DNA from: Torymus aiolomorphi
Taxonomy: Eukaryota; Arthropoda; Insecta; Hymenoptera; Torymidae
Reading direction: 5' to 3'
DNA length: 64,000 bases
Assembly (NCBI GenBank): GCA_036365515.1
Contig: CM070873.1
Coordinates: 216,861,376 to 216,925,375, forward strand
The translations under genes and the position numbers were made by a program. A model generated the notes under the pieces. The model saw nothing but the letters and a program-made list of their open reading frames with translations, was not told the DNA's origin and made no database searches. Below are positions 15,154 to 52,452 of this stretch, piece after piece (position 1 is the stretch's first letter; the number at the start of each line of letters is the position of its first letter).

Positions 15154-15189
15154 TAATAAATTCTTTTTATATAAATGAATAATGTTCTT

Positions 15190-17869
15190 TTACAAAATTG
15201 CTTGGCCAGAACCAAAAATGAGATAAATTGCACATCCTATTATTTCTATGACGAAAATATAAATAAATACAACAGCCCAGCTGTGAGTCAGGTGCAAAAT
15301 ATGTCCAGCAAAGTAAACTCCCAAGAAACCTAAAAACCAAATCAGAAATATCAAGGTATATCATATTTATAATATACTTTGAAATGTATTTCATTACCAG
15401 GAATGGCACCAACAGTATTCATAAAACCAAAAACACTACCAGAATGTTTTGGTGCTAGGTCTGAAGGGTTTACAACAATTGCACTATTATGAAAACCAGA
15501 TCCAGCAATTATTAAAGTTAAATATAAAATTGCTTTCTCAGATGTGTCTGTTGCAGCTATAAGATTTGTTAAATATATTACATTTTTATATATATTTAGA
15601 TTTTTACATGATAATTTTTAAGAAAAATTATTAACAAACCTAAAAATAATAAATTCACAGCTTGTATGGCAAAGCATGTCGTTTGAATTATTTTACGAGT
15701 TGCTGTGATGGAATATCCAGTCTTGATAAGTTTTTCAGAAATGGCCCTACCTAAGAATATAGATGGTACAGATGCAAGCCAGGGCACCATATTTACTATC
15801 CAACTCTTAAAATTAAATTTAAATATGCTATAATTGAAACTATATAAATTATGATATGTTATCATGGAAAATGTAAGCTACCTTGACATCAGGAAAGGTG
15901 TCATGAAAATAAGTTGGCATCCAGGACAATAAAATGAAAAAACAATTGTTTTGACATGCATGTCCTATCACACAAGACCTGTAAACATTTTTCCATATTA
16001 GATCTAAATTATAAATTCATAATAGTATAAATTTAAAAATAATATATAATTCACTGATTATTTGAAAATGGTGGCAATGTAACAAAAGTGCATTATTATT
16101 CATGTACCATGATTACCAGAAAGGTGCTTTTGTAATAAGTTCTTTAATTGGTAGTTTGTTGCTCGATGATTGTTTATAGGTAATTGGACGAGCATTTAAG
16201 AAAGAAGAATAATATAACAATATAAAGGTCCAGCCAATACTGATACATCCTGTAAAATAGAAGTACTAGTAATTTGTTTGATTGTTAATATATTATTGTT
16301 AATATATTATTGTTTTCATGTTATTAAAATTGCAGACATTCATTTAATTTACTACTTTAAAAAGAACAAAGTAAACACCTGTGGGGACACACAGAACAAC
16401 TTTTTAATATCAAATAATTTTTGTATAAAATAAAATATTTTTTATCTATTTATGCAGTTTTTAAGGGCATCAATCAATAGGTGGAAAACTATAGTTATAT
16501 CCAGAATCGGCATTATTCGTCTGCAAAATTTTTTCGAATATTATTTCATTAAATATTTGATGCAATGAAATTATTTTAATTAATAAACACTTTTCTCATA
16601 AAACCGGGGCCTTTAAAAGTGTTTTGTCAATCTTTAGAATAGTTTTTCAAAACACTTCTAAAGGCCCAGTTTTTATGAGACGTGTTTATGCGATAACTAC
16701 GCTATTACTCACAATTGGATTCCCGTTTTTCTCATTCAATTTTTAATTTTAAGGAAAAAACTCTTTGATACGTTATAGTTTTTTTTATTAAACTTAAAAC
16801 GTGTCAAAGAGTTTTTTTCAAAAACTTTAAAATTAAAGAAGAAAAACGGGAAACCTAGAATTGAGTAATAGTGTGGGTATCACATCACCTTAATTAAAAT
16901 TATTTCATCGCAACAAATATTTACTGAAATATTCGAAAAAAGTTTGCGGACGAATAATGCCGATCTCTGATTATATCTTTTGTAATATTCTAAATTTTAA
17001 TGTCATTTTAAAATCTGCTCGGTTTACTTAACACAGACGTTCGTTTTGTCCACTCTTACAGTACTTTTTGTGAAACAAAATTACCTAAGACTCTGAAAAC
17101 AGTGTCCCACTGGTAATTTTCTAAAACATATGATCCTAAAACTCCTGTTAACAGTGTTCCCAAAGCTGATCCTGAAGTAACCAAACTAAAAAAAGATGCT
17201 CTTTCACTTTCACTTAATTGTTGACTTGTTAGACTAATCATACTAGGAAAGTGCATTCCTGATTGAAATAAATATAAATTTTATTAATGCAAAATAATGA
17301 AATATGATATTGATATTGTACTTTTTTTTATACCTTGAAATGCTCCATTTATAACTCGAGCAAATGCTATCATTTCTATTGCATACCCATCCATAGAAAA
17401 AAATCTAATAACATCAGGTAAGAAAAATGTTGATATTCCCCAACCTACTGCAGCAATCCACATGATTTGCTGTCCTCCAATGCGATCGCTCACATATCCA
17501 CCTAATACTTGGGTCATTGTGTAGCCCCAGAAGAAACTGGAAAGAATAGTTCCAGAGTCTGTTTTGCTCCATCCTCTTTCTTTGCCAATGATTGGCACCA
17601 ATAAAGGTACTGATGTTCTTGACGCATAAACTAGGCAAGTTCCGCTTAACAATATTACGCCCCATTTTAATCGTTCTCTTCTAAAATGGTAAAAATGGAT
17701 TATTAAATTTTTACAAACACGATTGTTCAAATTCATTGTTGTCTTATTAAAAGTATAATCCTTGTAAAAATATTGAAATAAATTTTTTAGAAGTGATTAA
17801 ACAATTTTGCTTAAGCAGTCTATTATCTCACCTAGTCCAGTGTGAATTAAGACCATCATAAGCCTGCAT
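15190..17869 (-). CDS. SLC17A9: SLC17A9-type vesicular nucleotide transporter, 8 exons
   Basis: A major-facilitator protein of the SLC17 anion-transporter family, closest by motif to SLC17A9 (VNUT), which loads ATP into secretory vesicles. Exons on the minus strand read as 17869-17832, 17680-17334, 17258-17085, 16249-16117, 15978-15882, 15805-15640, 15556-15398 and 15329-15190, phases all consistent, 417 codons. Hallmarks are SSFFWGYTMTQVLGGYVSDR near the N-terminus, SESERASFFSLVTSGSALGT, NMVPWLASVPSIF, and HNSAIVVNPSDLAPKHSG near the C-terminus; the hydrophobic pattern fits 12 membrane spans. The start in exon 1 was chosen because the short exon gives WTRRERLKW, the usual family entry to the first span. 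The stop lies 36 bp from the Elp3 stop. Assignment to SLC17A9 rather than another SLC17 branch rests on motif recall. Confidence 0.92.
16497..16976. mobile_element. Multi-hairpin MITE in intron 3 of the transporter gene
   Basis: ATATCCAGAATCGGCATTAT and CGAATAATGCCGATC form the terminal inverted repeats. Inside are two further long hairpins, one around GGCCTTTAAAAGTGTTTTG (about 16605-16675) and one around AAAAACTCTTTGA (about 16720-16855). The element lies wholly within the 835-bp intron (16250-17084). No coding capacity. Confidence 0.85.
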
Positions 17870-18017
17870 CACATTCGCAGAAGAAAGAATTACCAGAGTT
17901 CATGGATCATTCATAAGCTTATCACCACTTCGTTAGTAATATCCTTATCTCTGTTCCGCGATATCTAGCGCTTTGATTTTTCGATTATTGACAACACTTG
18001 TTAAATTACGTGCCTTA
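17870..18017 (-). promoter_or_regulatory. Remaining proximal upstream region of the transporter gene
   Basis: Only 148 bp separate the transporter start codon (17869) from the transposon block at 18018. The short interval presumably holds the 5' UTR and what is left of the core promoter. No TATA box is obvious. Confidence 0.45.
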
Positions 18018-18544
18018 GGGCCTTTGCACGCTAAAAGCATAACGCCAATACGAAGGAATAAGGAATAAGAGGGCATAAGGTAGACATAAAGTACTTATGC
18101 TCCGCTTATTCCTCTTATGCCCGTGTTGTGTACGCAACGAAACGTGCATAACCTCTTGATTTTTTTGGAGTAAAGTTTTCGAAATGAAATAGCTTACTGT
18201 AATTATTAATTGACTCTAATTGGTTACAATGTAAAAAGTTGACAAAATAATAAAACTTGAGGGGCTTTTGTATTTTATCATTTCAACGTGCAGAAGTGAG
18301 AAAAGTTTTCTTCTTAATCATTTAGTGATTATTTTTATAATAATTTATAGTGTAGACATTTTTGAACAATGGATGAAGAGGTAAATGTTTACTTGCAACT
18401 TATTATTAAAAAAATTACTCCAAAACAAGCAATTTAGGGGTTATGCAAGATCCGTTGCGTACATAACACGGGCATAAGAGGAATAAGCGGAGCATAAGTA
18501 CCTTATGTCCACCTTATGCCCTCTTATTTCTTATTCCTTTGCGT

Positions 18545-19869
18545 TGTTATGAACTGCGTTCTCGCGAACGACTAGCATAGAATTTAGGCCGATTCTACAA
18601 TAATATTTCCGATTTAAAAGATTAATTCTAAAATAAATAATAAAAATAATTCCGATAGGTATTTAATTTCACTTGATCAACCAGAGAAATAATTATAATA
18701 AATAAATAATAACCGAATTTACAATAAAGGGAATAGAAATAAATGACCAACGATAAAAACGAATTCCATACGTCACTAGATAAACGATGGACAGGTGATC
18801 AATAATTTAATAAATAATAGCTTGCGATTCAAATAGATTACTAACAATTAATGAAGGCATTAATAATAATAAATTAGGAGTCTATTCATATTGATTAAAT
18901 AAACAGGATAAAACTCGCTCAGGGAAACGCTCATTCCTTTCTAAAAATATAATTCCTAGAGTTGTTTACTCCATATTATTCCTGGAGTTGTTTATCTCTT
19001 TTCCCTCTCCCTCTTCCTATTTTTAGAAGCCCTCGAAACCCGATCTAATCGGCAAAATCCCAACGGAAATTCCCTCTCCCTCTTCCTATTTACCTTCTAT
19101 TTTTAGAAGCTCTCGAGGTCAGCGGAAACCAGATCGAACCGGCAAGATCCCAACGGAAATTCCCTCTCCCTCTTCCTATTTACCTTCTATTTTTAGAAGC
19201 TCTCGAGGTCAGCGGAAACCAGATCGAACCGGCAAGATCCCAACGGAAATTCCCTCTCCCTCCTCCTGTTTACCTTCTATTTTTAGAGGCACCAAGGCCA
19301 ACGGGTTCTAACGGCAATTACCCCCACTCTCGAAGGAACTAGACTTCTCCAGCAGGGCCACCTCCCACTCTGGAGGACGATCCAGAATAAACTAGAATTA
19401 TCCAGCGAGGCCACTCCCACTCTCAAGGACAAAACCGGATTAAACTAGAATTCTCCAGCGAAGCCACTCCCACTCTAGGAAGGGAAATAGTTTTGATTGG
19501 TTCCACTCCCACCACCAACCTGGAGTTCCACCTGCAATTTAGAATATAAATAGGGCCTCCTCACCGGCCTCAGCAGTCTCTCCGAGGTCTCTGTGCAAGT
19601 GCCTCAGGGTATCGTAATTCAAGGTCATTTTGAATTGTACCACGTTTGAAAGTCTTTATATTTTTATAAAAGTTCTAAAGTTAATTTCTGAATTGAATAA
19701 ACTCCAGAGTTAAAGTGATATCTTCGAGTTTGAGTTTTCATTTCAATTTCCTGCAATTCCATGCACTTCAGTGCTTAATCGAACAACGAATTCCACGTTC
19801 TAGTTGGTCAACTCGGCGACCATTGTAGAAGAGCCCTTCTACTCTCAGACCCCGACTCGGGTCGTAACA
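18545..19869 (+). repeat. Gypsy-1 5' LTR
   Basis: TATAAATA at about 19545-19552 is the likely promoter; AATAAA at 19696-19701 is the likely polyadenylation signal, and between them lies the expected R region. A tandem block of about 90-bp units (CCCTCTCCCTCTTCC, TTTTTAGAAGC, TCGAGGTCAGCGG) occupies about 19005-19310, with two full and two partial units. It is the same length as the 3' LTR. Confidence 0.95.
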
Positions 19870-19873
19870 ATTT

Positions 19874-19892
19874 TGGTGACAGCGGTGGGATA
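19874..19892 (+). other. Gypsy-1 primer-binding site, tRNA-Leu type
   Basis: TGGTGACAGCGGTGGGAT starts four bases after the LTR end. It is complementary, with about one mismatch, to the remembered 3' end of a eukaryotic tRNA-Leu plus CCA. The tRNA identity is an inference from memory. Confidence 0.65.
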
Positions 19893-20388
19893 GTTCGAAG
19901 AATTGCCAAGGAAAAGAATCCCAGGAGAGGAGGAAGAAGTTCAGTATAGTGTTTCGTCCAGGGTTTTAAGCTGTGGTTTCCCCTGGAACGCGGGCGAATG
20001 TCGGAGCATTTTTGATTGGAATATTGGATCCACAGCAGAAAATCAGAGAGGAAATCCCCAACCAATCATCAAGGACTTCATGAATGCCAACGATAGAACT
20101 CCACTTAATCCGAGAGAAAATACCCCGGACCTAGGACGCGAGAGTGGGGCAGGTGACACACCTCCAAGGCCAAACCAAAGATGACGATCCTCCCCCAGGA
20201 TACAACCTTATCAGATTCGTTCCCGACGCCATCTGCGATCAGGTCATTGCCTATCTTCACCACCCAACTGCAAGCATTGCCAAAGATAGCACGATTGAGA
20301 GGCCTTACCCGGACCACCAGGAGCATCTACGAGTCCTCCAAATATCCTAAGTTAAGTACCTGAGCGAGCGAGTAGGGTTAAAATAAAA

Positions 20389-21642
20389 ATGTCGATAGAT
20401 AACGAGCAAGCGTCCGGCTCATGGTCAATTTCAGAAAATTCCGGTCTAACGGAGAAAAGTAGTCTACCTGAAGGTATTGTAGCGCTGGATTTAACGATAA
20501 ATAATCGCGATGAATCAAGTATACCATCAATTAGGCCGCCGCTTAATCCTGCGCCGGATTTCCGGAACATGAGAGACGATTTAATTACGCGTAATGATTT
20601 CGATAATAATTCCATAATTAATAGATCCGTTACATCGAGTTCTTTATCCAGTTACAAAAAGATTAATGAGATAGTGCATATACTCCCCGAATTTAATGGA
20701 AAGAATATCTCTATAAATCGGTTCATAAGGGAATGTAAAGAGGCCGAAAGTTTTGTAAATCCGAGTGACCAAAGTTTCTTTTTAAAATTGGTAAAATCGC
20801 GAGTCACCGGCGACGCTAATGATTACTTACAATTTAAGGATTTTAGCAATCTAGATGAGCTCCTTTTAGAATTAAAAAGGGTATTCGCCCCAACTCAAAA
20901 TTTGCCTCAGATTCAAACTGATTTAGCACGAGTAAGGCAGAAGCCACAGGAAAAAGTTTCTGAATACGGGTTAAGAGTCACTCGGATTCTGCAAAAGGCT
21001 CGTGAATTGATAGACGAAAATTTTAATACTGTTGTCGCTCGTGGTATGATCGAGGGAACAACAAACACGGCCATCGAATGTTTCACTTTAGGTCTAGAAT
21101 CAGATATAGCCACAAGAATGATAGGGAAACAATTTTCCACCTTCGAAGTAGCAATTAGCACCGCCATCACTTGCGAAAGGTATGTACAGCAGCGAAAGGA
21201 ATTGCATGGGGAAATCTTGGGCGAAAATAGAAAACGGTCTTACTGTCACGTCGCGGAACCAGAAACCAGGGATGAACCGGAAAGAAAGAAACCTAAATGT
21301 TATAGGTGCGGTAAGGTAGGTCATGTCTCGCGAAATTGTCAGCAGAGGGCTGATAAAGGTCTTTACTGTACCTATTGTCGAGTCGAGGGTCATATCGATG
21401 ACTTATGTAGAACGCGGCGACGAAATAATGTTTCATCAAACATTGGCCAAGGCTATCCTCCCAACAGGAATTATTTACCTATTGCTAACTATCCTCAACA
21501 TCAGGGGCCCGTTAATAATACTCATCCTTTAAACTCGAATGCGGTTCGTCACATGGGCGCGACGGCGAACCCTCGAAATTCAAATCATCAAGCGTCCCCA
21601 CCCGCGCTGTTATCATTGCCACCGGTTCCACTAAGGAGGTAA
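20389..21642 (+). CDS. Gypsy-1 Gag
   Basis: A 417-residue structural polyprotein that would form the particle and bind RNA. The N-terminal third is Ser/Asn-rich and polar. Residues about 90-290 have the helical capsid character of retrotransposon Gag (EFNGKNISINRFIRECKEA onward). Two zinc knuckles lie near the C-terminus: CYRCGKVGHVSRNC (about 304-317) and a variant CTYCRVEGHIDDLC (about 327-340) ending in Cys. The ATG at 20389 is the first in a long open frame about 520 bp after the LTR. The pol frame overlaps the last 124 bp in the -1 frame. Confidence 0.93.
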   Translation: MSIDNEQASGSWSISENSGLTEKSSLPEGIVALDLTINNRDESSIPSIRPPLNPAPDFRNMRDDLITRNDFDNNSIINRSVTSSSLSSYKKINEIVHILPEFNGKNISINRFIRECKEAESFVNPSDQSFFLKLVKSRVTGDANDYLQFKDFSNLDELLLELKRVFAPTQNLPQIQTDLARVRQKPQEKVSEYGLRVTRILQKARELIDENFNTVVARGMIEGTTNTAIECFTLGLESDIATRMIGKQFSTFEVAISTAITCERYVQQRKELHGEILGENRKRSYCHVAEPETRDEPERKKPKCYRCGKVGHVSRNCQQRADKGLYCTYCRVEGHIDDLCRTRRRNNVSSNIGQGYPPNRNYLPIANYPQHQGPVNNTHPLNSNAVRHMGATANPRNSNHQASPPALLSLPPVPLRR

Positions 21643-22649
21643 ATTCACCCCTTGTCGCGATCGAATGTAATGATCTAGCTATAAATAGGCCGCGTTTTCT
21701 TATTGATACGGGGTCAGAACTTAATATTATTAAGTGTGGTTTGCTGAAAGACAAAATGCCCATTTATAAAGATAACTTATACCGATTGGCTGGAATAAGC
21801 GAAGGCTTGGTTCTGACAGAGGGATACGTTAAGGTAAAGCTCGATGGGATCCCTTGTAGAGTTAATATTGTACCGGATGATTTTCCCATAAGAGCTGATG
21901 GAATTCTTGGGGTGGAATTCTTAAAGGAGCAAAAAGCAATTTTATCTTTTGATGATGATGTACTCCTTTACGGAGATGCACGCGGTTCAGTTTCTTTTAT
22001 TAATCATAACACTCACTACCTACCTGCTAGAACTAAATCTCTAATTCAGATCTCCGTTCAGAATTCCACGCGATCTACGGGTTATATACCTAAGATAAAC
22101 GCGGGGCCCGGGGTTTTCATTGGAGAATGCCTGGTCACTAATAAAAACGGAAAAGTCAATGTATTCGCGATCAATACTACCACAGAAGACATGAATATTA
22201 TTATACCGCTCATTGAACTGGAAGGTTATGATTGTACTTTAAAATCCGTGCGCGTCATTAGAACAACGAATAAAAGTAAAACCGAGGCAGAGCTACAGCT
22301 CAGAATAGATAAGATTTTGGAATTACTCGATTTAAAAGATCTCGATCGGGAAGAAAGAGATAGTATAGTTAAACTCGTGTCAGAATTTCCCTGCCAGTTT
22401 CATTTGCCCAAGGATAAGTTAAGTAAAACTACTACAGTTACCCACAAAATCCCTACTACCAATGATATTCCTATTAATGTAAAGCAATACCGGTACCCGC
22501 CTCACTTAAGGGAAATAGTTCAGAAGCAGGTTCAGGAATTAATCGATAACGACATAGTAGAAGAATCCGAATCACCTTACAACTCTCCATTGTGGATTTT
22601 CCCAAAAAACCTGATTCGCAGGGAAATAAAAGATGGCGTTTGGTTATAG
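21519..22649 (+). CDS. Gypsy-1 Pol part 1: protease and N-terminal RT
   Basis: This frame is open from 21519, inside gag in the -1 register, to a stop at 22649. It has no good ATG at its start, consistent with ribosomal frameshifting from gag. The aspartic protease active site is FLIDTGSELN (about 21693-21722). The RT domain begins after residues matching VKQYRYPPHLREIV. The frame ends just after SPYNSPLWIFPK, in the RT fingers region, where the rest of RT continues in the next -1 register. See the heptamers at 21528 and 22604. Confidence 0.88.
   Translation, partial: YSSFKLECGSSHGRDGEPSKFKSSSVPTRAVIIATGSTKEVNSPLVAIECNDLAINRPRFLIDTGSELNIIKCGLLKDKMPIYKDNLYRLAGISEGLVLTEGYVKVKLDGIPCRVNIVPDDFPIRADGILGVEFLKEQKAILSFDDDVLLYGDARGSVSFINHNTHYLPARTKSLIQISVQNSTRSTGYIPKINAGPGVFIGECLVTNKNGKVNVFAINTTTEDMNIIIPLIELEGYDCTLKSVRVIRTTNKSKTEAELQLRIDKILELLDLKDLDREERDSIVKLVSEFPCQFHLPKDKLSKTTTVTHKIPTTNDIPINVKQYRYPPHLREIVQKQVQELIDNDIVEESESPYNSPLWIFPKNLIRREIKDGVWL
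21528..21534 (+). other. Candidate -1 frameshift heptamer T TTA AAC at gag/pol
   Basis: In the gag frame the codons read CCT TTA AAC, so the heptamer TTTAAAC is in X XXY YYZ register. Pol opens in the -1 frame nine bases upstream, at 21519. TTTAAAC is a well-known -1 slippery sequence. A downstream stimulatory structure was not folded. Confidence 0.6.
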
Positions 22650-23854
22650 ATTTTCGGGCTCTAAACGAGAAAACCATCGCTTCCGCTTATCCCCTTTCCA
22701 ATATAACGGAAATTCTCGATCAATTAGGAAGAAGTAAATATTTTTCAACTCTTGATCTAGCTTCGGGATTTCATCAAGTGCCAATTGATCCCTCAGACGC
22801 TCCTAAGACCGCGTTTTCAACCCCATTTAATCATTTGCAATATAAAAGAATGCCTATGGGATTGAAGGGCTCCCCATCCACGTTTCAGGCTCTCATGGAT
22901 AAGGTGCTGAGCGGGTTGCAGGGTATTGAATTATTCGTCTACATGGACGATATTGTAGTATACGCCGAATCCTTAGAGGATCATACTCGGAAGACAAAGA
23001 AATTGTTTGGGAGACTAAGAACTGCCGGTCTCACCCTGCAGCCCGATAAGTGCTTTTCCCTCCGGAAAGAAGTCGTTTACTTAGGGCACATCATATCCGA
23101 ACAGGGGGTGAAACCCGATCCTCGTAAGATTCAGGCCGTCTCGGAATTCCCGCGTCCGAAGAATGCTAAAAATATCAAACAATTTTTAGGTTTAGCTGGG
23201 TATTACCGTAGATTCATTCCTGACTTTGCTAAAATTTCTAGGCCCCTCCATTCACTTTTGCAAAAGGATAAACACTTTTTATGGGATAACGCGCAAGAGA
23301 ATGCTTTCATCACCCTGAAACAAACACTCTGCTCCAGCCCCATCCTGCAATATCCAGATTTTAATGAACCATTTGTTGTAACGACCGACGCATCCAATTA
23401 TGCTTTGGGTGGTGTCTTGAGTCAGGGCCCGATAGGAAGGGATCTCCCAATTGCCTACACGTCAAGGGCTTTAGTTAGCGCAGAAATAAGATACACAACC
23501 ACGGAGAAAGAATTACTAGCTGTAATGCACACAGTGAAGCAGTTTAGACCGTATCTCTATGGCCGGAAATTTACATTAGTGACCGATCATAGACCACTAT
23601 TATGGCTAAATAAATTAAGAGATCCTATCGGAAGAGTAGGACGTTGGAAAATTTTGTTAAGGGAATATGACTATGACATTATTCATAAACCGGGAAAGAT
23701 AAACATGAACGCGGATGCACTGTCCAGAAACCCTATACCAACTCTTCCAATAGCCATCGATTCCGTTGACTCTGATCCAGAGGAATTGTTCCCAGAAACT
23801 AATATCGAAAATTTATTCCTAATTAATCATGCTGAATCAGGTCATAAGGGATAA
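22592..23854 (+). CDS. Gypsy-1 Pol part 2: RT core and RNase H
   Basis: The main RT catalytic core, with FSTLDLASGFHQVP, KRMPMGLKGSPSTFQ and the YMDD box (FVYMDDIVVYAE, about 22935-22970). RNase H follows with TTDASNYALGGVL, the TEKELLAV segment and TDHRPLLWL, ending near NADALSRNP. The frame ends at TAA 23852-23854, just after RNase H. It overlaps the previous frame by 58 bp; the join falls at AAAAAAC (22604-22610). Confidence 0.93.
   Translation: MDFPKKPDSQGNKRWRLVIDFRALNEKTIASAYPLSNITEILDQLGRSKYFSTLDLASGFHQVPIDPSDAPKTAFSTPFNHLQYKRMPMGLKGSPSTFQALMDKVLSGLQGIELFVYMDDIVVYAESLEDHTRKTKKLFGRLRTAGLTLQPDKCFSLRKEVVYLGHIISEQGVKPDPRKIQAVSEFPRPKNAKNIKQFLGLAGYYRRFIPDFAKISRPLHSLLQKDKHFLWDNAQENAFITLKQTLCSSPILQYPDFNEPFVVTTDASNYALGGVLSQGPIGRDLPIAYTSRALVSAEIRYTTTEKELLAVMHTVKQFRPYLYGRKFTLVTDHRPLLWLNKLRDPIGRVGRWKILLREYDYDIIHKPGKINMNADALSRNPIPTLPIAIDSVDSDPEELFPETNIENLFLINHAESGHKG
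22604..22610 (+). other. A AAA AAC heptamer at the break inside RT
   Basis: In the upstream pol frame the codons are CCA AAA AAC, so AAAAAAC lies in exact X XXY YYZ register, and a -1 slip enters the RT core frame at the homologous position. It may be a working shift site. More simply, one A may have been lost from a run of seven, because programmed sites inside the RT fold are not usual. Confidence 0.55.
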
Positions 23855-24397
23855 GATTCCGAAGGATCAGAGAATTTCGATCATTCCTATACCCCGACTA
23901 GACAAGACGATAGACCAATAAACACTGACGGACCGACCGATGGACTTAGCACTGTCTCTTCAATGGAAGAGGCAGCGGTCATCGTATATCATGACCGAGG
24001 TAGCTGTAGGGGACCACCGGTTGTAAAGGTCGTGGCTGAAGCCCTCCAGAGAGAGGAGAATAGAGTAGATAGGCCGGACGTGGATATCGCGGCCGAATCC
24101 CTGAAAAATGGGATAGTTAGTGTTAGGAGTCCACCGGCCACAAGCAAGGTGGCCGAAGCCTTCGCGCGTGTTGAGGGGGTCGGGGACCTACAGGAAAATT
24201 CCTATCAAGAAATCCCGCCAAGCCGAAGTACTCTCACACGTGTCGAAGAGAACGCCGGGGGCCTACGGGAAAATTCCCATCAAGAAACCCTGTTAGGCAA
24301 CTGTCACGAGGAGTACAACCGAAGCTCTCACGTGTGCTGGGGGGCTCGGGGGCTATGTGTTCCTGGAGCGAAGTACTTCCATACACGTTGGGAATGA
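23855..24397 (+). pseudogene. Gypsy-1 Pol linker, interrupted
   Basis: After the stop at 23854 the same frame stays open to 24397, but the integrase lies in another frame that becomes clear from about 24357. The stretch holds an imperfect repeat seen as GDLQENSYQEIP near 24180 and 24405 and a variant near 24255. The linker between RNase H and integrase is fast-evolving. A stop plus a +1 (or -2) frame change means full-length Pol cannot be read straight through, unless an intron removes this part. Confidence 0.6.
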
Positions 24398-26435
24398 TAG
24401 AGCCGGGGACCTACAGGAAAATTCCTATCAAGAAATCCCGTCAGGCGAAAATAGGGTTGAAAGGACGCAGACAAGGGTTCAAGGGGAGGTTGATCTCCAA
24501 GAACCAATGACAGATAACCTCAATAGTGTATTCGACGATTCTGGGGATGAATTAGAGAATGAAATTATTGGAATAAAAACCTATGAGATTCAGTCTTCTG
24601 CTATCACGAGTGAATCCCCCAACACACAGTCCTATGTGGACAACGATACACAGTCTTATGAGGACAACAATACACAGTCCTATGTGGACAACGATACACA
24701 GTCTTATGAGGACAACAATACACAGTCCTATGTGGACAACGATATACAGTCTTATGTAGATAACAACGCACAGTCTTATGTAGACAACAACGCACAGTCT
24801 TATGTAGACAATGACATACAGTCCTATGTGGACAACTTGATACATAAAACACCGTCCTCAATGGACTTAACACATACGATACACAAAAACCAACCCCACC
24901 TAGACTTGACTCCGACTATCGCGAATAGAATAGATCAGGTCTTAGTCATAACTTCCGTCGAATACTCCCGGGACCAACTTTTAATGAGAAAAGATAATAT
25001 CGCTCATTTTATGTCAGTAGATTGCAAAATAAGCACCCCTATTTGCCAACAATTAGTAGATTTAGAAATGATAAATGTTGAAAAATTAAAAACAGAACCC
25101 ATCGGCATAGGCGCGGTAGTACAGACAAATTTATCAAACGGAAAAATTATATATTCATTATTTGTCAAGGAAAAATCGAATGAAGTGGCAACCGCAGCTA
25201 TAATAGTTCAATGCTTAGATTCCCTCCGGACCGCGATGATCGAGGAAAAAGTAAATTCAGTTAGCATCTCGAAATTTGGAGATGGGTTGGAAAAGAACCA
25301 TTGGTTACCCATCGAAATTACCCTACGGGCGCGTTGGAAAACAGCGATACCGAAATTAACTATTTGCACGGGGGAAGTAATTGTTCCACCTCCCGATGAT
25401 AGACTAGGTATTATTGGCGAGGCCCACGATTCGGCTATTGGGGGACACAAAGGCATCGCGAAAACTTATCATCGAATCCGTGAGCAATACGTTTGGCCGG
25501 GAATAAAGGAAGACGTTTCCGAATATGTTAGGACCTGCGCGGAATGCCAGAGAAAGAAATTAGTACGAGTGAAAACAAAGCAGCCAATGAGAATCACGAC
25601 TACCCCCAGTAGAGCGTTCGAAGTGTTGGAAATGGATATAGTAGACCTCTTACCCGTAACCGTATCCGGAAATAAGTATATCCTGACCTTGCAATGTAAT
25701 TTAACCAAATACTCTGATGCCCTTCCCATTCCTGATATGACCGCTGAGATGGTTGCCACCGCTTTAGTCCACGATTTCATTACTAGATTCGGCTGTCCCG
25801 AAGCGATTAAAACCGATCAGGGCAGCAATTTTCAGAGTAGTTTAATGCAAAAGGTAGCGAAATTATTTAAAATTAAACAATTGCGATCCACCTCCTTCCA
25901 TCCGCAGACCATGGGCTCTTTAGAAAGAAGTCATCACTCCTTGGTTGAATATTTAGAAATGTACACGGATAAAACCGATTGGGATACTTGGATAAAAATG
26001 GCTATGTTTTCATATAATACATCTGTTCATTCGGCACACGGTTTTACTCCCCACGAGCTAATTTTTGGACAAAAGGCGCGATTACCTTCCGAGTTTGAAA
26101 CAAGGACTGTAGAAAAGACATACGAAATGTACCTGGATGAATTAATATTTAAATTAAATAACACTCAAAAAATGGCAAAAGCGCGGTTATTGGAAGCAAA
26201 AGAACGATCAAAGCGATATTACGATCAAAAATTAAATGCGAAAGATTTCAAGATCGGAGAAGAGGTATATTTATTAAAAGAACCTCAAGTAGGTAAATTT
26301 GATGAGCAGTATGCAGGCCGGTATAAAATAATAGAATTAATAGATGATAGAAATGCAAAAATAGATTTAGGAAATAATAAAACCAAAATAGTCCATGTAG
26401 ATAAGTTAAAACACGCGTGTTTACGACCTAATTAA
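24357..26435 (+). CDS. Gypsy-1 Pol part 3: repeat linker and integrase
   Basis: Residues after about 80 hold a tandem peptide repeat (see 24625-24840). The integrase follows: the HHCC zinc site (HDSAIGGH, YHRIREQYVWPG, CAECQRKK) and the catalytic triad in LEMDIVD, IKTDQGSNF and GSLERSHHS, all present. The C-terminal part carries HGFTPHELIFGQ and a basic tail with VYLLKEPQVGKFDEQYAG. The stop is TAA at 26433-26435. The true start is unclear; the frame's first usable codon at 24357 is GTG, so it is probably part of the longer polyprotein. Confidence 0.9.
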   Translation: MFLERSTSIHVGNDRAGDLQENSYQEIPSGENRVERTQTRVQGEVDLQEPMTDNLNSVFDDSGDELENEIIGIKTYEIQSSAITSESPNTQSYVDNDTQSYEDNNTQSYVDNDTQSYEDNNTQSYVDNDIQSYVDNNAQSYVDNNAQSYVDNDIQSYVDNLIHKTPSSMDLTHTIHKNQPHLDLTPTIANRIDQVLVITSVEYSRDQLLMRKDNIAHFMSVDCKISTPICQQLVDLEMINVEKLKTEPIGIGAVVQTNLSNGKIIYSLFVKEKSNEVATAAIIVQCLDSLRTAMIEEKVNSVSISKFGDGLEKNHWLPIEITLRARWKTAIPKLTICTGEVIVPPPDDRLGIIGEAHDSAIGGHKGIAKTYHRIREQYVWPGIKEDVSEYVRTCAECQRKKLVRVKTKQPMRITTTPSRAFEVLEMDIVDLLPVTVSGNKYILTLQCNLTKYSDALPIPDMTAEMVATALVHDFITRFGCPEAIKTDQGSNFQSSLMQKVAKLFKIKQLRSTSFHPQTMGSLERSHHSLVEYLEMYTDKTDWDTWIKMAMFSYNTSVHSAHGFTPHELIFGQKARLPSEFETRTVEKTYEMYLDELIFKLNNTQKMAKARLLEAKERSKRYYDQKLNAKDFKIGEEVYLLKEPQVGKFDEQYAGRYKIIELIDDRNAKIDLGNNKTKIVHVDKLKHACLRPN
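24625..24840 (+). repeat. 24-bp tandem repeats coding for an 8-residue motif
   Basis: About nine units encode variants of TQSYVDND (first residue T/I/A, fifth V/E, last D/N/L). They lie in frame in the segment between RNase H and integrase. Several neighbours are identical in DNA, implying recent unit duplication. Confidence 0.9.
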
Positions 26436-28043
26436 ATTTATTCATTGCTTACTTCTCTATACGGTATGCAAATGTTACCTCATTGCGATACTTATATTTT
26501 TATATTCCACGTGCGACCAAATTGTAACTTCATGTATCCTATTTGTAATTAAATTGACAAATAATAAAATAATAAGGGTTATAGGAGAGATGGCCAGGGC
26601 TCGCCTTAAAGTTTAGTTCCTTTTTGCCCTGGAGATGGGAAACCGGAAGTACTCCTGATACACTGTATAAGGATGGGTCCCGGCGAGCCATAGGTAGCAT
26701 CTCACAGAAGGGAGCGATGGCAGGGGCTCCCTTCACCCTGAAAAAAAAATTAAATTATTTAAAGGAAAATCCGTGAATAAATAACAAAGCAAATAACCGC
26801 GTTGCATCAAACTTACGAAAACTTCACCCCTAAAAATTTAAATTATCTAATCTAAACCCGCGTTTTCTTGTAAATTCACCCTTAAAATTTAAAATTTGTT
26901 TATTGAAAATTTACTATTTAGAATAAAAAAAAAAAAATAACTTCACCCTTAGAAAATCAAAATTATTCGTTGAAATTTACACTTAAAATCCGAAATTTCC
27001 TATTAAAAGCTTCACCCTTAAATTTGATTAGTTAACTTAAATCCACGTTTTACTGTAGATTCGCCCTTAAAAATAATTATTAAACCCGCGTTTTTACCCT
27101 AATTATTTAAATTAAATCCGTATTCCATTATAAATTCACTCTTAAAAAATTAAACTTATTAATAATTCACCCTGAAAAATGAAATTATTTGAATTAAACC
27201 CGTGTTCCATTGTAACTTCACCCTTATAAAATGAATTTATTTAAGATCAAAACCGCGCTTCCTAGTAAACTATATTTTCTTGAAAATTATAATTATTATT
27301 TAAAGAATAACCCCTATCCAGAATTTTAAAATTATCCGTGATAAATTCGCCCTTAAAATCAGAATGGTTGATAAAATAAAAACCCTTTTTATGGAAAGAA
27401 GCCTTGATCTTCCTGTTGACTGCGTCACTTCCGCATCAGTGATTAACAGCAAATTCCCTTCCTATTTTCAAAAAAAAAAAAAAAAGGAGAGAAACCTTCA
27501 TATTTAATTTCTCTCTCTCTTCCTCTCTCTCTCTCTTCCTCTCTCTCTCTTTCCTCATTCTATGGGACTCGGCAGTCCGGATTGATAGGAAAAAGAAAAT
27601 AATTCGTCTTCTTCGCCTCTCTAAATTAGCACTACCACCGCCATCTACAGTCGATTCTTCCTTCCGCCTTGCCCTCCCCTCTCGGTCGTTCGTCTTTTCC
27701 GCTTCGGCTCTCCGGCATTCTCGCGGGAAACCTTGTACCTGCCAGATTTTCAAGACGTCGAGCCTCATCCTCAAATCTGAAAAAAAAAGGAAAAAGGGGG
27801 TAATTATCCTCAGCTCGTGCCGGCACACGAGCGTCGAGCCTCACGTCTCCCAAGTGATCAAATCTGTCGTCTAAGGGATTACATTCCCTCGTTATTCAAA
27901 GATCTTCGACGAGCTATGCTGACAAGGTAAAATCGGCCATCTCCTTCCCCTTTTTTTTCTCCTCTTTTTTCTCTCTCTTTTTTTTTCCTCCCTCCTTTTC
28001 CTATCACCAGAGTGAGGAATATAAAAAAATCTCTCTATAGGAA
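26436..28043 (+). other. Gypsy-1 3' region: repeat array and intron-like segment
   Basis: From about 26800 to 27370 about eleven degenerate copies of TTCACCCTTAAAA recur, many preceded by AAACCCGCGTTTT; spacing is about 40-70 bp. An inverted pair around CAGGGCTCGCC/GGCGAGCC is at about 26595-26690. CT- and T-rich tracts fill 27465-27600 and 27945-28010. ACAAG followed by GTAAAAT near 27928 and CTATCACCAG ending at 28010 look like a splice donor and acceptor, giving a possible intron of about 80 bp just before the accessory ORF. Confidence 0.6.
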
Positions 28044-28865
28044 ATGGAGGAGAACCCGGAAAACCGTCGCATAATGCTGCACGTAAGGACAGTCGGGACC
28101 TTTAAGGTCAAGGAAGAAAAGAACCCAACGTCTCCACTTAACCTCTCTATGGCCCTCCCAGGACCATCAGGAACGACACGCGATAAAGGCCAGATTCGGG
28201 GACCATACAAACAGCCTTCCTGGGTGGCTCTTACAAATACAGTTACCCAGACAGGGGCCAAAATTCTCTGTATGGCCGCTCACCCCGGAGTCGGGCATTC
28301 AGAGCACCCATACGCCAATACAGGAATGGAGCCTGCGCACGGGTTGCATCTGCCCCAGCTAAAAATAGCTGGTGCATGGACGGAGCCTCAAAGGACACGG
28401 ATAGTCCCGCCGAGGGCACCGTTGCAGCCCCTCATAAGGATGATGCCTCAGGGAATGCCCCCTCACTTGGATCCCGAACAAGGGGTTAAGCCCTTCAACG
28501 GACCCAAGCCAGCAACAACGCCCGGACAGGCAGAGAAATTATGGAGAGTCCACTACAAGAAAATGCCATTAAGAGGAGAACTCATGAGAACTACCAGACA
28601 TTTGAAAGGAACTTACGTTAGGGATCCTCAATCCAAACAATGGAGATGTCTTAAGTGCTACCAGGGCATCACAGGCGAGTGGGAGATCATGACCTGCCAC
28701 TGCATTGGTCTAGAGAGGGCTTTACGTCTACCACTGTGTCCAGGAGGATGTGGAGAGAGCCCACTGGTTGCCAGATCTTTCTCTAGATGCGAAACATGCC
28801 AAGTGATCTTTGCATACCACAGGAAAGAGATCCAGGAAGGACAGGTGTTCAAGGTTCCAATTTAG
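28044..28865 (+). CDS. Accessory ORF of Gypsy-1, Cys-rich C-terminus, unknown function
   Basis: A 273-codon ORF in the place where some Gypsy elements carry env. I recognise no family. There is no signal peptide, no membrane span and no fusion-type segment, so it does not look like Env. Residues 1-60 are charged and Pro/Ser-rich; 95-165 are Pro/Gly/Met-rich. The C-terminal third has eight clustered cysteines: C202-x2-C205, C218-x-C220, C232-x3-C236 and C249-x2-C252, which suggests two zinc sites. A pyrimidine-rich tract ending in CACCAG lies about 33 bp before the ATG, so expression from a spliced subgenomic RNA is plausible. AATAAA at 29010-29015 follows. Intactness in a young element suggests it is used. 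It may be a captured host sequence or a fast-evolving retroelement protein. Confidence 0.7.
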   Translation: MEENPENRRIMLHVRTVGTFKVKEEKNPTSPLNLSMALPGPSGTTRDKGQIRGPYKQPSWVALTNTVTQTGAKILCMAAHPGVGHSEHPYANTGMEPAHGLHLPQLKIAGAWTEPQRTRIVPPRAPLQPLIRMMPQGMPPHLDPEQGVKPFNGPKPATTPGQAEKLWRVHYKKMPLRGELMRTTRHLKGTYVRDPQSKQWRCLKCYQGITGEWEIMTCHCIGLERALRLPLCPGGCGESPLVARSFSRCETCQVIFAYHRKEIQEGQVFKVPI

Positions 28866-29612
28866 ATGACTATGCGTATTTCATTAACTTTGTGTCTTTG
28901 CATATTTATATTTTTTTTTTATACTTTCATGTAATTTTGATATCCTTGTATTTTCTAAGGCTTTTGTACAGCTCATTTCATCCTCTTTCTCCCTTCTTAT
29001 TTTCATGTAAATAAAGAATGGTGTTGAGATATATTTTTTCTTCTTTCTTGGTGATATTATCCGATCCCTTCGTTAAGGTCTCAATGGTTTTAGCTTGTCG
29101 GGCTGGAAGCATCACCATCTTATATGCACAACCCAAATCACTCGGTACACTCTCGCTATATCTCTCACCACATTTTTGCAGAACCAAATTATAGGAAGTG
29201 GATAACATAGTAGCTTTTGGTGAATATTTGCTGCTTAGCATTAAATAGGGAATGGTATTTCCTGGTTAATGGGATTTCCTTCTCACAAAAGACGAATAGT
29301 TAATGGTTTTGGGGTGGATGTATAGCAAATAATGACCCTTATCGAATGGATTCTATGCCTGGGAGCCATGGGCAAAGAGCAATTGGGTTTCAGAACATTT
29401 GGGTAAGTTAATAATTTTAGGTAAATTCTATTTCAGTAAACACAGTTGTCCTGTTGTTGTCATGAGGGATGATATCCCTACAATTATAGGCCTCATGGAA
29501 CGGTTATCTTCCTGTGAACTGTCATGGGAAGTATTGCATCAAGAGCTTATCGTCAGGCAGAATGGATGCAGTTGCTAAACTATAACATCTTAAAAAAAAT
29601 AAAAAAAGTATG

Positions 29613-29662
<50 letters not shown>

Positions 29663-30246
29663 ATTCTCATAATAGGATGAGTCGCATTGATGCTGGTTCC
29701 TTGGATCCTGCCTTCACAGGTAGTTATTGGCATCTGAGCTTTAAAAATTATAACCCTTGGGCATCCCTCTTAGTTAAAGCATTCACTTTGAGCTGGCAGC
29801 AATCGCCACTATTATTAATGTACTAATATATGTTCCTGCAACATGCATCCTCTTATACTCCTGCTCCCTAAAAGAAAAAGAACAACAAATTCACCACAAA
29901 GAATCTTTGTTCCCTTTTAATTAAGTACTTATCTGATCGATCAACGGGGTTCTCTTGCTATTTTCCTTGTAAAATAACAGGAGGGTAGCCTTTCTTCTCC
30001 CTCATTTTTCCTTCACAACTCCCTTTGAGAAAGGTGCAACCTTCATTTATGAGAAAAATTCAGACTCCTATTGCGCATTATTCTGACAGCTCTGTAGCAG
30101 ACGACGATAATATTTAGCGATCGGACCCGGCCACTGGCGGGTGGCACCATCTAACGGTGACAAGCCAAACCCGACTCGCGCAGGAGGACACAGTAAAGGG
30201 CGCGAATATTTAAAATACAAAAGCCCGAATCATGGGTTCGTGTTTT
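28866..30246 (+). other. Gypsy-1 3' untranslated region with a poly(A) run
   Basis: No further gene is supported. AATAAA is at 29010-29015. A run of about 48 A with a preceding A-rich stretch lies at about 29590-29660. The rest shows no clear repeats. Confidence 0.6.
29613..29660 (+). repeat. Long poly(A) tract inside Gypsy-1
   Basis: An almost pure A run of about 48 bases, about 750 bp after the accessory ORF and 600 bp before the 3' LTR. It could be a simple-repeat expansion or the tail of a cDNA acquired by the element. Confidence 0.85.
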
Positions 30247-30262
30247 AAAAGAAGGGGGGAAC
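30247..30262 (+). other. Gypsy-1 polypurine tract
   Basis: AAAAGAAGGGGGGA lies immediately before the 3' LTR, the expected position and composition for the plus-strand primer. Confidence 0.85.
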
Positions 30263-31587
30263 TGTTATGAACTGCGTTCTCGCGAACGACTAGCATAGAA
30301 TTTAGGCCGATTCTACAATAATATTTCCGATTTAAAAGATTAATTCTAAAATAAATAATAAAAATAATTCCGATAAGTATTTAATTTCACTTGATCAACC
30401 AGAGAAATAATTATAATAAATAAATAATAACCGAATTTACAATAAAGCGAATAGAAATAAATGACCGACGATAAAAACGAATTCCATACGTCACTAGATA
30501 AACGATGGACAGGTGATCAATAATTTAATAAATAATAGCTTGCGATTCAAATAGATTACTAACAATTAATGTAGGCATTAATAATAATAAATTAGGAGTC
30601 TATTCATATTGATTAAATAAACAGGATAAAACTCGCTCAGGGAAACGCTCATTCCTTTCTAAAAATATAATTCCTAGAGTTGTTTACTCCATATTATTCC
30701 TGGAGTTGTTTATCTCTTTTCCCTCTCCCTCTTCCTATTTTTAGAAGCCCTTGAAACCCGATCTAACCGGCAAAATCCCAACGGAAATTCCCTCTCCCTC
30801 TTCCTATTTACCTTCTATTTTTAGAAGCTCTCGAGGTCAGCGGAAACCAGATCGAACCGGCAAGATCCCAACGGAAATTCCCTCTCCCTCTTCCTATTTA
30901 CCTTCTATTTTTAGAAGCTCTCGAGGTCAGCGGAAACCAGATCGAATCGGCAAGATCCCAACGGAAATTCCCTCTCCCTCCTCCTGTTTACCTTCTATTT
31001 TTAGAGGCACCAAGGCCAACGGGTTCTAACGGCAATTACCCCCACTCTCGAAGGAACTAGACTTCTCCAGCAGGGCCACCTCCCACTCTGGAGGACGATC
31101 CAGAATAAACTAGAATTATCCAGCGAGGCCACTCCCACTCTCAAGGACAAAACCGGATTAAACTAGAATTCTCCAGCGAAGCCACTCCCACTCTAGGAAG
31201 GGAAATAGTTTTGATTGGTTCCACTCCCACCACCAACCTGGAGTTCCACCTGCAATTTAGAATATAAATAGGGCCTCCTCACCGGCCTCAGCAGTCTCTC
31301 CGAGGTCTCTGTGCAAGTGCCTCAGGGTATCGTAATTCAAGGTCATTTTGAATTGTACCACGTTTGAAAGTCTTTATATTTTTATAAAAGTTCTAAAGTT
31401 AATTTCTGAATTGAATAAACTCCAGAGTTAAAGTGATATCTTCGAGTTTGAGTTTTCATTTCAATTTCCTGCAATTCCATGCACTTCAGTGCTTAATCGA
31501 ACAACGAATTCCACGTTCTAGTTGGTCAACTCGGCGACCATTGTAGAAGAGCCCTTCTACTCTCAGACCCCGACTCGGGTCGTAACA
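30263..31587 (+). repeat. Gypsy-1 3' LTR
   Basis: Exactly as long as the 5' LTR, with about seven substitutions between them (for example at the GATAGGTATT/GATAAGTATT site). It ends CGTAACA, followed by the GCGT duplication. Confidence 0.95.
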
Positions 31588-31648
31588 GCGTTATGCTTTT
31601 AGCGTGCAAAGGCCCTTAGTGTACCTTAGTAGGTACAGTACCTACACC

Positions 31649-33990: not shown

Positions 33991-34042
33991 TAATGGGCCA
34001 TAGACTGCGCGCTCCTGTTTTTTTTTTCTCCTTGAGAGGTTA

Positions 34043-34587
34043 GGGCCTTTGCACGCTAAAAGCATAACGCAAAGGAATAAGGAATAAGAGGGCATAAGGT
34101 GGACATAAGGTACTTATGCTCCGCTTATTCCTCTTATGCCCGTGTTGTGTACGCAACGGATCGTGCATAACCCCTAAATTACTTGTTTTGGAGTAAGTTT
34201 TTTAATAATAAATTGCAAGTAAACATTTACCTCTTCATCCATTGTTCAAAAATGTCTACACTATAAATTATTATAAAAATAATCACTAAATGATTAAGAA
34301 GAAAACTTTTCTCACTTCTGCACGTTGAAATGATAAAATACAAAAGCCCCTCAAGTTTTATTATTTTGTCAACTTTTTACATTGTAACCAATTAGAGTCA
34401 ATTAATAATTACAGTAAGCTATTTCATTTCGAAAACTTTACTCCAAAAAAATCAAGAGGTTATACACGTTTCGTTGCGTACACAACACGGGCATAAGAGG
34501 AATAAGCGGAGCATAAGTACCTTATGTCCACCTTATGCCCTCTTATTCCTTATTCCTTCGCGTTATGCTTTTAGCGTGCAAAGGCCC
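34043..34587. mobile_element. MITE copy B (GGGCCTTTGCACGC ends)
   Basis: 545 bp, flanked by TTA (34040-34042 and 34588-34590). It is an uninterrupted sister of the element that Gypsy-1 entered. Confidence 0.92.
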
Positions 34588-36540
34588 TTATTCCCACACT
34601 GTGGGCATAACTCTGGTTCTCACTGCGTCGATTCTAGGGAATGTGTTGAATTCTCATCTATATATTGCGATGGTGTACTTAGGCGATGAATCGCCGAGCC
34701 CGAACACCCGCAAATAAGAGAATTATTAACCTCTTTCTCTCTCTCAATCTTCGCTCTCGACACACTTACCGTCCAAAAGGAGATTCCGCAGTGACGTCGT
34801 GCCTGGGCAAGCTACGAGGCTGAAAAGGTTGGGAAGGGTAATATCGCTAAATAAATATCCAAACAACAACTCCAAGTAAACTCTTAATTTATTGAAACGA
34901 AAAGAAATCCCTACTACAAAAAGCTAATTCCACGCTCGCATACATGCGCACACTCACTCTTCTCACTCTCGTGAAACCCGTCGTCACACCGCGTGGAAAC
35001 TCGCCGACGAACCAAAACACGCTGCGACGCGATTCGGAAAATCGCCGCGTACGCGAATCTCTCTCTCTCTCTCTCTCTCTCTACTCTCCACGCTCTAAAT
35101 CTCCGCGCCAATCGTACGCCCGAACTTGAGGAATCGCCGCAATGCGATTCCCGGAAACGCCGCACGCAAATTCTCTCTCTCTCTCTCTCTCTCTCCACGA
35201 ATTTCCACACGCACACTCACCCGGATCGCCGCGACGCAAGCCCCGAACCGACACACGCTATCTCTCTCTTTCCTCCGGCGTTAGACGCACGCACAAACAA
35301 AAGGCATCGCCGCGCGATGCTCGATTATTACCCGCGACACTCTTTCTCTCTCTCTCTCTCACACCCGCACTTTCGCTCTACCCTCCCGTGACTCTCTCTC
35401 CACTCTTAAATCGCGTCCCCCTTACCTCGACGATGAGCAGCCCTCAGCGCCGGCTCTCCGTCCACGGCCCCGGGTCTCGTCTTTCTCTCGCTCTCGCTCT
35501 CTCCCTCGCCTTTCCACGACCGTCGTTCTCCTCCTGCCGTCGGCCGAAATCGTCCTCCGGGACGCCCTGGACGCCTCCTCCTGGCTCTCGTCGTCGTCTC
35601 TTCTACACTCTCTCGCACCACTCTCCGTACCTCTTCCTCTGGCTCTCTCTCGCACAACCTCGCTCTTCAACTGCACACACGGCACTGCCGATCTTTTCCG
35701 CGCGCCGTATCTCTTACCCCCGCACATGCGCAGGCGTTCCACCGGTTGCATCGCCAGATCGGCGCTACCCATGCCTCGCACGTGGCTCTTCTATCTCTCT
35801 CTCGGCCGTGCCCGTCAGCGGAGCGCCTCCCCGCTGTAGCAATGTGCGACCGCGCACACTCGCCCGCGAGGTGCTGCCACCTCGCTCTCCAACTCCGCGG
35901 TCGCACGGAGTTGCGCGAAATTCAAACTCTGATATACTCTCTGATATACTTACGTGCCTGCGGGCCCACCGCGATGCTTGAGTTTCCTCTTTCTTCTCGG
36001 CCTCACTCTCCTCCGCCACAATACCCGCCGGGATAAACATAACCGAAACAGAGAAAAAGATCTCGAAAAATCAATAATGACGTCTTATACGGTTGTGTCC
36101 CGGCAACGCAGCTTGAGAGAGAGAAAAAGCAATGGTGACGACTTACCACGTCACAATATTTAGTCGGATTCCCGTGGCAGTGGGCTTTATAGATTGGACG
36201 ATAATTGACGTAAGAAAGATCCTCACTGCACTGGGGTTACGACCTGATTCTCACTACGACGATCCTTTTGGTTCCATTGATTCTGTTCTATTGGACAAGC
36301 ATGTCTTCTTCTGACTGGATTTGGTGTATGTCGAGGGGTATCTACTCTTTCAGCAAATAGGCGTTTATCAAAAGAAGGAACTGATAAATGGATACTCGCT
36401 GGATCAGCAGAAATCCCCTGGTTCTCACTATGTCGAACAGTGTGGAATGAACTTAACTCTTCTTAAAAATAGTAAATATCACAAACTTTTCGCGCCTGAG
36501 AAAATGGAACTCTCGTCTTCATTATAATATAAAATATAAG
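34588..36540. repeat. CT-rich degenerate tandem repeats, no gene
   Basis: (CT)n runs lie at about 35058-35082, 35170-35194 and 35342-35362, set in GC-rich units that share GAATCGCCGC and CACACG motifs. A wider shell of sequence on each side (TTCTCACTGCGTCG near 34618, TTCTCACTATGTCG near 36421) may be one older repeat. The long open frames here are low-complexity Ser/Arg/Pro readings. Its origin is unrecognised; an LTR or satellite is possible. Confidence 0.45.
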
Positions 36541-44511: not shown

Positions 44512-44540
44512 AGAGAGAGAGTGCAATAGCTGTGGTGATA

Positions 44541-45085
44541 GGGCCTTTGCACGCTAAAAGCATAACGCAAAGGAATAAGGAATAAGAGGGCATAAGGTGG
44601 ACATAAGGTACTTATGCTCCGCTTATTCCTCTTATGCCCGTGTTGTGTACGCAACGGATCGTGCATAACCCCTAAATTGCTTGTTTTGGAGTAAGTTTTT
44701 TAATAATAAATTGCAAGTAAACATTTACCTCTTCATCCATTGTTAAAAAATGTCTACACTATAAATTATTATAAAAATAATCACTAAATGATTAAGAAGA
44801 AAACTTTTCTCACTTCTGCACGTTGAAATGATAAAATACAAAAGCCCCTCAAGTTTTATTATTTTGTCAAATTTTTACATTGTAACCAATTAGAGTCAAT
44901 TAATAATTACAGTAAGCTATTTCATTTCGAAAACTTTACTCCAAAAAAATCAAGAGGTTATGCACGTTTCGTTGCGTACACAACACGGGCATAAGAGGAA
45001 TAAGCGGAGCATAAGTACCTTATGTCCACCTTATGCCTTCTTATTCCTTATTCCTTCGCGTTATGCTTTTAGCGTGCAAAGGCCC
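44541..45085. mobile_element. MITE copy C (GGGCCTTTGCACGC ends)
   Basis: 545 bp, flanked by ATA (44538-44540 and 45086-45088), nearly identical to copy B. It inserted in K2 between AGCTGTGGTG and CTCTCTTTC. Confidence 0.92.
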
Positions 45086-51300: not shown

Positions 51301-51683
51301 TTTGACAAACGCAGGTGCATGTGTGAACTGGTTGCCGTCTACTAATTTCTTATGTTTTAGATCAGGTAAGAGATGATAGTGAGTGAGCAGATCAGCTCCG
51401 ATTATGGAATGAGGAACGTCCGCTATGGTAAAGTTCCAAGTGAGCCTGTAAGGTAGGCCTATGTCTATCTGAAGGCGTGCGACGCCGAAGACGTCTATCG
51501 TGGATCCGTTAACGGCGTATAGTTTTACTTCAGCTGGGCCTCCTCGCCAGCTTTTAGGTTTCGGGATGACCGAGATGTCGGCACCCGTGTCGATTGAGAA
51601 AACTTCACCGGAAAATTTATCTTTAACGTGGAGACGTGCAGTAATGCCTGTCCGGCTGTCAGTCTCCGCGACAGCAGGTTGCT
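48380..51683 (-). pseudogene. Family X Pol: protease, RT, RNase H, integrase, broken
   Basis: Protease active site [12 protein letters not shown] is near 51590. RT has [14 protein letters not shown] and the catalytic box in [11 protein letters not shown]. RNase H has [15 protein letters not shown] and TDHKPLVYAL. Integrase has HLDLVGPF and TTDQGAQFESR. Breaks: TAA at about 50152-50154 in RNase H, TAG at 49855-49857 after it, and a frame change near 49010-49070. The third catalytic residue is lost too: the GMVKRLHR segment has Lys where Glu is expected. Confidence 0.92.
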
Positions 51684-52118: not shown

Positions 52119-52452
52119 AGTGTTCTATTTTGAAAAAAAATGGACAAAATGAAATATCTCGCGAACGGATATCGATAGCCGGATGAATCCAACTGCATTT
52201 TAAAGTTGAAGTAATGTACAATAAAGGAAAAATAGTCCAGTACTGATCATTTGACCATGTGACCTTGGAAATGAAAAATAAAAGTTGAATAAATAACGTA
52301 TTTTCGGCTTTTTCATTGTAGACTTCCTGGCTATCAATTTTTTCGATAAAAAAAATATGTACTCCTGTAGTGTTTGATGCAAGGAATCCGAATTTGATGT
52401 CAGAATTGTCCTATCGCACACCAATTTGTTTTTACTGTATATCACAGTCGAG
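52119..52452. other. Junction between family Y pol and family X gag
   Basis: About 334 bp of AT-rich sequence without LTR, gag or pol similarity. An 81-residue minus-strand frame (52200-52445) has no recognisable features. It may be foreign filler or the remains of a 3' region of family Y. Confidence 0.5.

Follow-up and report, generated by a model that had tools for sequence, protein, structure and literature searches.

The window analyzed (the whole 64,000-nt stretch of Torymus aiolomorphi contig CM070873.1 considered here) contains a Gypsy element at 18545-31587. Its two LTRs (18545-19869 and 30263-31587) are 1325 nt long each, differ at 7 of 1325 positions (99.47% alike), and have the ends TGTTATG...CGTAACA. 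GCGT flanks the element directly on both sides (18541-18544 and 31588-31591). The LTRs, the target duplication, a CCHC gag, and a pol in the order RT-RNase H-integrase place the element in Ty3/Gypsy (Metaviridae), and the similarity of the LTRs agrees with the original prediction, made from the letters of the window, of a young element. Its main parts are as follows.

18545..19869, plus strand: 5′ LTR, starting with TGTTATG and ending with CGTAACA, with GCGT before it
20389..21642, plus strand: gag, with zf-CCHC above the cut-off and Retrotrans_gag just below it (23.5 vs. 24.1 bits)
21519..26435, plus strand: pol, with RVT_1, two RNase H models, Integrase_H2C2, and rve
21519-22649, 22550-23854 (ending in TAA), and 24297-26435, plus strand: pieces of pol, in differing frames
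30263..31587, plus strand: 3′ LTR, with the purine-rich AAAAGAAGGGGGGAAC directly upstream, a candidate polypurine tract

Pol is broken in this copy, its open pieces falling in different frames and a stop occurring at 23852-23854. The occurrence of a broken pol beside such similar LTRs may reflect decay, a defective master, or an assembly error. The RT showed 3357 relatives at E ≤ 0.001 in a collection of 5.8 billion proteins. The best among the 120 listed were 83–87% identical; the lower-ranked named relatives among these 120 included the ants Cataglyphis niger, Lasius niger, Formica fusca, and Vollenhovia emeryi, and bees (Anthophora) and other insects were also represented. Between RNase H and integrase, pol carries nine in-frame copies of a 24-bp repeat (24620-24836, TQSYVDNN-like), and in an AT-rich region 3′ of pol (26732-27360) a TTCACCC-like core occurs ten times in degenerate repeats. 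The element sits at the end of one copy (18017-18545) of an inverted-repeat family of approximately 530–550 nt, which is found twice more in the window (34041-34588 and 44539-45085). Other features of the window were identified by eye: a second Gypsy element on the minus strand (48380-56411), with an open pol stretch of 1026 aa (52453-55533) and also with a broken pol (48380-51708); a Mariner-like transposase fragment (4447-5073); and pieces resembling host exons (12936-13322 and 17284-17796; ELP3-like and an SLC17-type transporter) in a CpG-poor, AT-rich stretch.

The region between pol and the 3′ LTR contains an orphan ORF and several features around it.

27927..27928, plus strand: GT of the proposed donor AAG|GTAAAAT, weak (rank 17 of 466)
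27945..28010, plus strand: pyrimidine tract and candidate acceptor ending in CACCAG, third best of 370 YAG sites
28044..28865, plus strand: orphan ORF of 273 codons, between pol and the 3′ LTR, the place of an envelope gene in some related elements
28647..28799, plus strand: eight-cysteine domain (residues 202–252), a candidate zinc-binding domain
28527..30098, no strand assigned: CpG-poor block, best two-breakpoint fit on 26436-30262; left edge uncertain, 28423 being nearly as good
29010..29015, plus strand: AATAAA, followed by GT/T-rich sequence
29598..29603, plus strand: second AATAAA, which starts 15 nt upstream of the A-run and resembles an mRNA end
29613..29661, plus strand: pure run of 49 A

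The ORF had been predicted as intact over 273 codons and was recovered as such; its ATG is the first after 28010 and has G at −3 and G at +4. From stop to stop it is open for 274 codons, a length reached in none of 1000 dinucleotide shuffles of 26436-30262 and in none of 2000 shuffles of 28005-28900, although the longest shuffled open stretches came close to it (271 and 266 codons, respectively). The five other frames across the ORF contained 7, 8, 8, 13, and 17 stops. Codon-position asymmetry was weak, being equalled in 114 of 1000 shuffles, whereas that of gag and of RT was equalled in 0 of 1000 each. When the ORF was divided into thirds, the asymmetry was equalled in 295, 4, and 925 of 1000 shuffles, the cysteine-bearing last third thus being without signal. 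The codon-usage score, calculated with stops left out, was equalled in 120 of 1000 shuffles and was still the best of the six frames. A codon choice formed elsewhere would blunt this codon-usage test.

Four close cysteine pairs had been noted in the protein (202/205, 218/220, 232/236, and 249/252); they were all found and comprise eight of its nine cysteines. At least eight cysteines within 51 residues occurred in 2 of 20,000 amino-acid shuffles and at least four close pairs in 13 of 20,000, and the two together were never obtained (0 of 20,000). The openness of the ORF and its cysteine pattern exceed chance. The protein is basic (pI 9.7), and residues 161–201, just before the cysteine domain, have a pI of 11.0. 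It may be translated, is Cys-rich, and probably binds zinc. Its peak 19-residue hydropathy is 0.95, without a membrane span, and the ORF is therefore not Env-like; the whole protein also lacks a Pfam match, in line with the original assertion that it is not Env. It is thus neither an errantivirus-like Env (an envelope-type membrane protein after pol) nor an sORF2/FAST-like fusogen (a short protein with a membrane span).

Profile searches and structure prediction, suggested alongside the original prediction, were run and yielded no significant relative. Pfam gave no match to the whole protein and one weak partial match to its C-terminal part (OTU1 zinc finger, E = 0.063). Nothing significant was found in NCBIfam, in PADLOC, in PHROGs (HNH endonuclease, E = 0.24), in PDB by sequence (best E = 0.69), or in INPHARED phages (best E = 0.4). 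A word-based search of the 5.8 billion proteins returned 937 candidates, none at E ≤ 1, and a second search returned 11 candidates with the same outcome. The IMG/VR sequence search showed no relative of the ORF, and among GTDB genomes 23 stretches fitted a pattern and 0 were confirmed. A scan of IMG/VR for the cysteine spacing found at least 120 matching stretches; of 205 matches scored, 188 were interrupted by a stop within the core, and with the cysteines disregarded no match scored above −40. The IMG/VR cysteine pattern matched 62 stretches, vs. 26 for a control pattern one N shorter that does not match the window. After frames closing within 20 codons were dropped, 35 and 22 were kept, respectively, and the best 20 of the 35, inspected by eye, included no convincing relative. 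Two low-confidence predicted models (full-length and C-terminal) produced no significant structural match. Insect retroelement proteins are present in the protein database, so the distribution of the ORF is narrow at best, as far as a word-based search can show. There is no sign that it is conserved, since no relative was found in the same database in which RT relatives were 83–87% identical. Such a narrow distribution would fit a recent acquisition specific to the lineage or, alternatively, the absence of a gene. Among the papers listed in literature searches on accessory ORFs of LTR elements, none dealt with the present ORF; ORFs near gag-pol that are orphan or captured are already known as a kind (PMC5408684, PMC7264820, PMC11963269, and PMC11952523).

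Donor sites were ranked with an insect-like matrix applied to all GT sites in 18545-30262 (n = 466). The donor originally proposed near 27928 is present as AAG-GTAAAAT, although its strength is poor (17th of 466). The 84-nt intron 27927-28010 was rejected as a likely splice because of this rank, and the predicted 27927-28011 junction was accordingly not sustained. The pyrimidine tract leading to CACCAG at 28010 was confirmed (18 of 20 pyrimidines), and the two YAG sites of the element that outrank this acceptor (n = 370) are one site present in both LTRs. The acceptor lies 34 nt upstream of the ORF ATG. The top donors by this matrix were at 21316 and 21180 in gag and at 29403, and the best donor score in the 5′ LTR and leader was 2.91, vs. 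6.2 in gag. A stop in the ORF frame at 28038-28040 (the stop-to-stop stretch starts at 28041) means that no fusion protein can be made across 28011. A good acceptor followed by the ORF ATG as the first ATG makes a spliced subgenomic RNA plausible, as judged from the sequence, and such an RNA may carry a spliced, non-fused leader.

CpG observed/expected ratios were low in the ORF (0.52), in 28866-29040 (0.34), and in 29041-29612 (0.43), and higher elsewhere in the element (gag, 1.34; pol, 1.03; 5′ LTR, 0.98). Intermediate ratios were found in the 5′ leader (0.72) and in 29662-30262 (0.71), and in the 3′ LTR individual 200-nt windows likewise dropped to 0.45–0.56. The CpG-poor block had a log-likelihood gain of 23.1 (coarse grid), compared with at most 8.3 in 200 permutations. 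The 12 CpG-poorest of 248 windows of 2090 nt started at 13001-15501, 27751, and 28001, and the early part of the ORF was less CpG-depleted than the remainder. The ORF seems to lie in DNA of foreign composition, and the sharp difference in CpG content between part of the segment and the rest of the pol-to-LTR region makes its acquisition probable. Methylated hymenopteran genes carry a CpG-poor signature, and host genic DNA is therefore a possible origin of the segment. The AATAAA at 29010 was confirmed, the run of approximately 48 A reported at 29613 was counted as 49, and the second AATAAA is an addition to what had been described. The CpG-poor block passes through the A-run and extends approximately 440 nt past it; the A-run therefore does not look like the boundary of a simply captured mRNA. 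No target-site duplication was found by the A-run, where old or very short ones would be missed. A single flank 7-mer (CATTCTC at 27716) was found in 3.2 kb, which equals chance, and four 8-mers were common to both flanks of the A-run, with approximately seven expected. Of the original proposal that a host mRNA may have been captured, the acquisition is probable on account of the CpG contrast, whereas a plain mRNA is doubtful, the block outrunning the A-run with no duplication beside it. For the same reasons, neither simple mRNA capture nor later retroposition is established.

These data were weighed against several explanations. The ORF may be the frame of a host gene of no use to the element, which, through template switching or read-through transcription, would have taken up a piece of that gene comprising its coding end, its 3′ end, and DNA farther on, along with poly(A) signals and an A-rich stretch. 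The CpG-poverty of the segment is matched in the window only by 13.0–17.6 kb, where the translations resemble host exons (by eye); the segment has two AATAAA, one followed by GT/T-rich sequence and the other just before the A-run; one copy is known, and the ORF is absent from the protein collection searched. However, insect host proteins are partly present in that collection and none matched, and the ORF is placed and oriented as an accessory gene would be, downstream of a good acceptor. We consider such a passenger somewhat unlikely, though a serious contender. The entry of a retroposed, polyadenylated RNA into this copy after the element had integrated is improbable: an AATAAA does begin 15 nt before a pure A-run, but no target duplication of the LINE type accompanies it (old or very short ones being undetectable), the sharing of 7-mers and 8-mers does not exceed chance, and the CpG-poor block continues approximately 440 nt farther. 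That a GC-richer, non-coding 3′ stretch should be open and have paired cysteines by accident is unlikely. The values for asymmetry (114 of 1000) and codon usage (120 of 1000), the shuffled stretches of 266 and 271 codons close to 274, and the lack of a relative in the protein collection agree with it, but it has to account for a length reached in none of the 1000 and 2000 shuffles, for the 7 to 17 stops in each of the other five frames, and for a cysteine pattern not obtained in 20,000 shuffles.

Errantiviruses acquired env from baculoviruses, and a capture by the element of the cysteine domain from the NS3 family of densoviruses, bidnaviruses, baculoviruses, and nudiviruses would, if true, extend the shuffling of arthropod-virus genes to retrotransposons via a non-envelope gene. 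A retrotransposon would then have adopted a zinc gene of the group of arthropod DNA viruses that share NS3 and used it in its nuclear phase, which we regard as very improbable. The idea preceded the structure search. With the low-confidence C-terminal model, the BFVD matches included an unnamed Parvoviridae protein (rank 3, 237 aa, E = 1.7), a protein of the nudivirus Kallithea virus (rank 9, 276 aa, E = 3.1), and ‘NS3 [uncultured densovirus]’ (rank 13, 242 aa, E = 3.5, 19% identity over 48 columns). None of the BFVD matches was significant (best E = 1.2; 102 at E ≤ 10, of which 50 were listed), 0 of 38 matches to the full-length model were named NS3, and no sequence match was found in the 5.8 billion proteins or in IMG/VR. 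The NS3 family has a zinc motif and moves between viruses, according to the excerpts of PMC4061559 and PMC4966970. NS3-like proteins have a cysteine-based zinc motif, as the ORF protein may, but with four conserved cysteines (PMC4061559), vs. eight here, and the structural matches are insignificant.

The explanation that we prefer, tentatively and as a possibility rather than a probability, is that the ORF is an acquired accessory gene whose product is a basic protein that would bind zinc, handle nucleic acids, and work like CERV of Cer1. In the excerpted text of PMC10309623, CERV is a nuclear protein made from a spliced mRNA, has a candidate C4 zinc finger, and is needed for gRNA export, and its ORF occupies the env position of Cer1, a Gypsy/Ty3 element of C. 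elegans. We infer a CERV-like role in RNA handling from the analogous position, the charge, the Cys-rich domain, and the orphan status of the ORF. A spliced subgenomic RNA using the 28010 acceptor would express the ORF from its first ATG; the protein would act on the RNA of the element itself in the nucleus, as CERV does, and its basic stretch and zinc domain would bind unspliced genomic RNA, aiding export or packaging. The openness and cysteine pattern of the ORF, the basic charge and missing membrane span of its protein, the good acceptor, an intact ORF in an element with LTRs so alike, and the compositional break between pol and the 3′ LTR support this explanation, whereas the weak codon signals, the lack of a relative in the collections searched, the broken pol of this copy, and a 5′ leader without a good donor speak against it. 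Like CERV, the ORF lies between pol and the 3′ LTR and does not encode Env; unlike it, the ORF cannot be fused to gag-frame exons across 28011, which the stop at 28038-28040 precludes. CERV has 517 aa and five exons, partly in the gag frame, vs. 273 aa for the ORF. We propose a resemblance to CERV in the manner of working; membership in the CERV type is not claimed, as a gag-frame fusion is excluded.

Other LTR elements offer partial parallels, as far as the excerpts of the respective papers go. The ORF3s of the bdelloid rotifer elements Vesta and Juno are likewise acquired non-envelope genes after gag-pol (PMC5408684), but are recognizable enzymes (GDSL esterase and DEDDy exonuclease), whereas this ORF matches nothing. 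The plant Gypsy elements Retand, Grande, and RIRE2 also combine repeats and an additional ORF in a long pol-to-3′-LTR region (PMC11963269, PMC7264820); those of Retand run antisense and are for the most part TRP28-type ORFs, whereas the present one is sense and orphan. In the MDG1 group (412 and Stalker2), sORF1 and sORF2 are likewise accessory to insect Gypsy elements that lack Env (PMC11952523); in flies they precede gag, they encode approximately 110 and 70 aa, and sORF2 has a membrane span, whereas the present ORF follows pol, encodes 273 aa, and has no such span.

Many LTR elements have additional ORFs downstream of pol, few of them with a known role; CERV is a worked example. An orphan zinc-type protein in an Env-less insect element, encoded in DNA of seemingly foreign composition, would offer another case in which to test whether such a gene is kept for RNA export or for silencing control, and where it was taken from.
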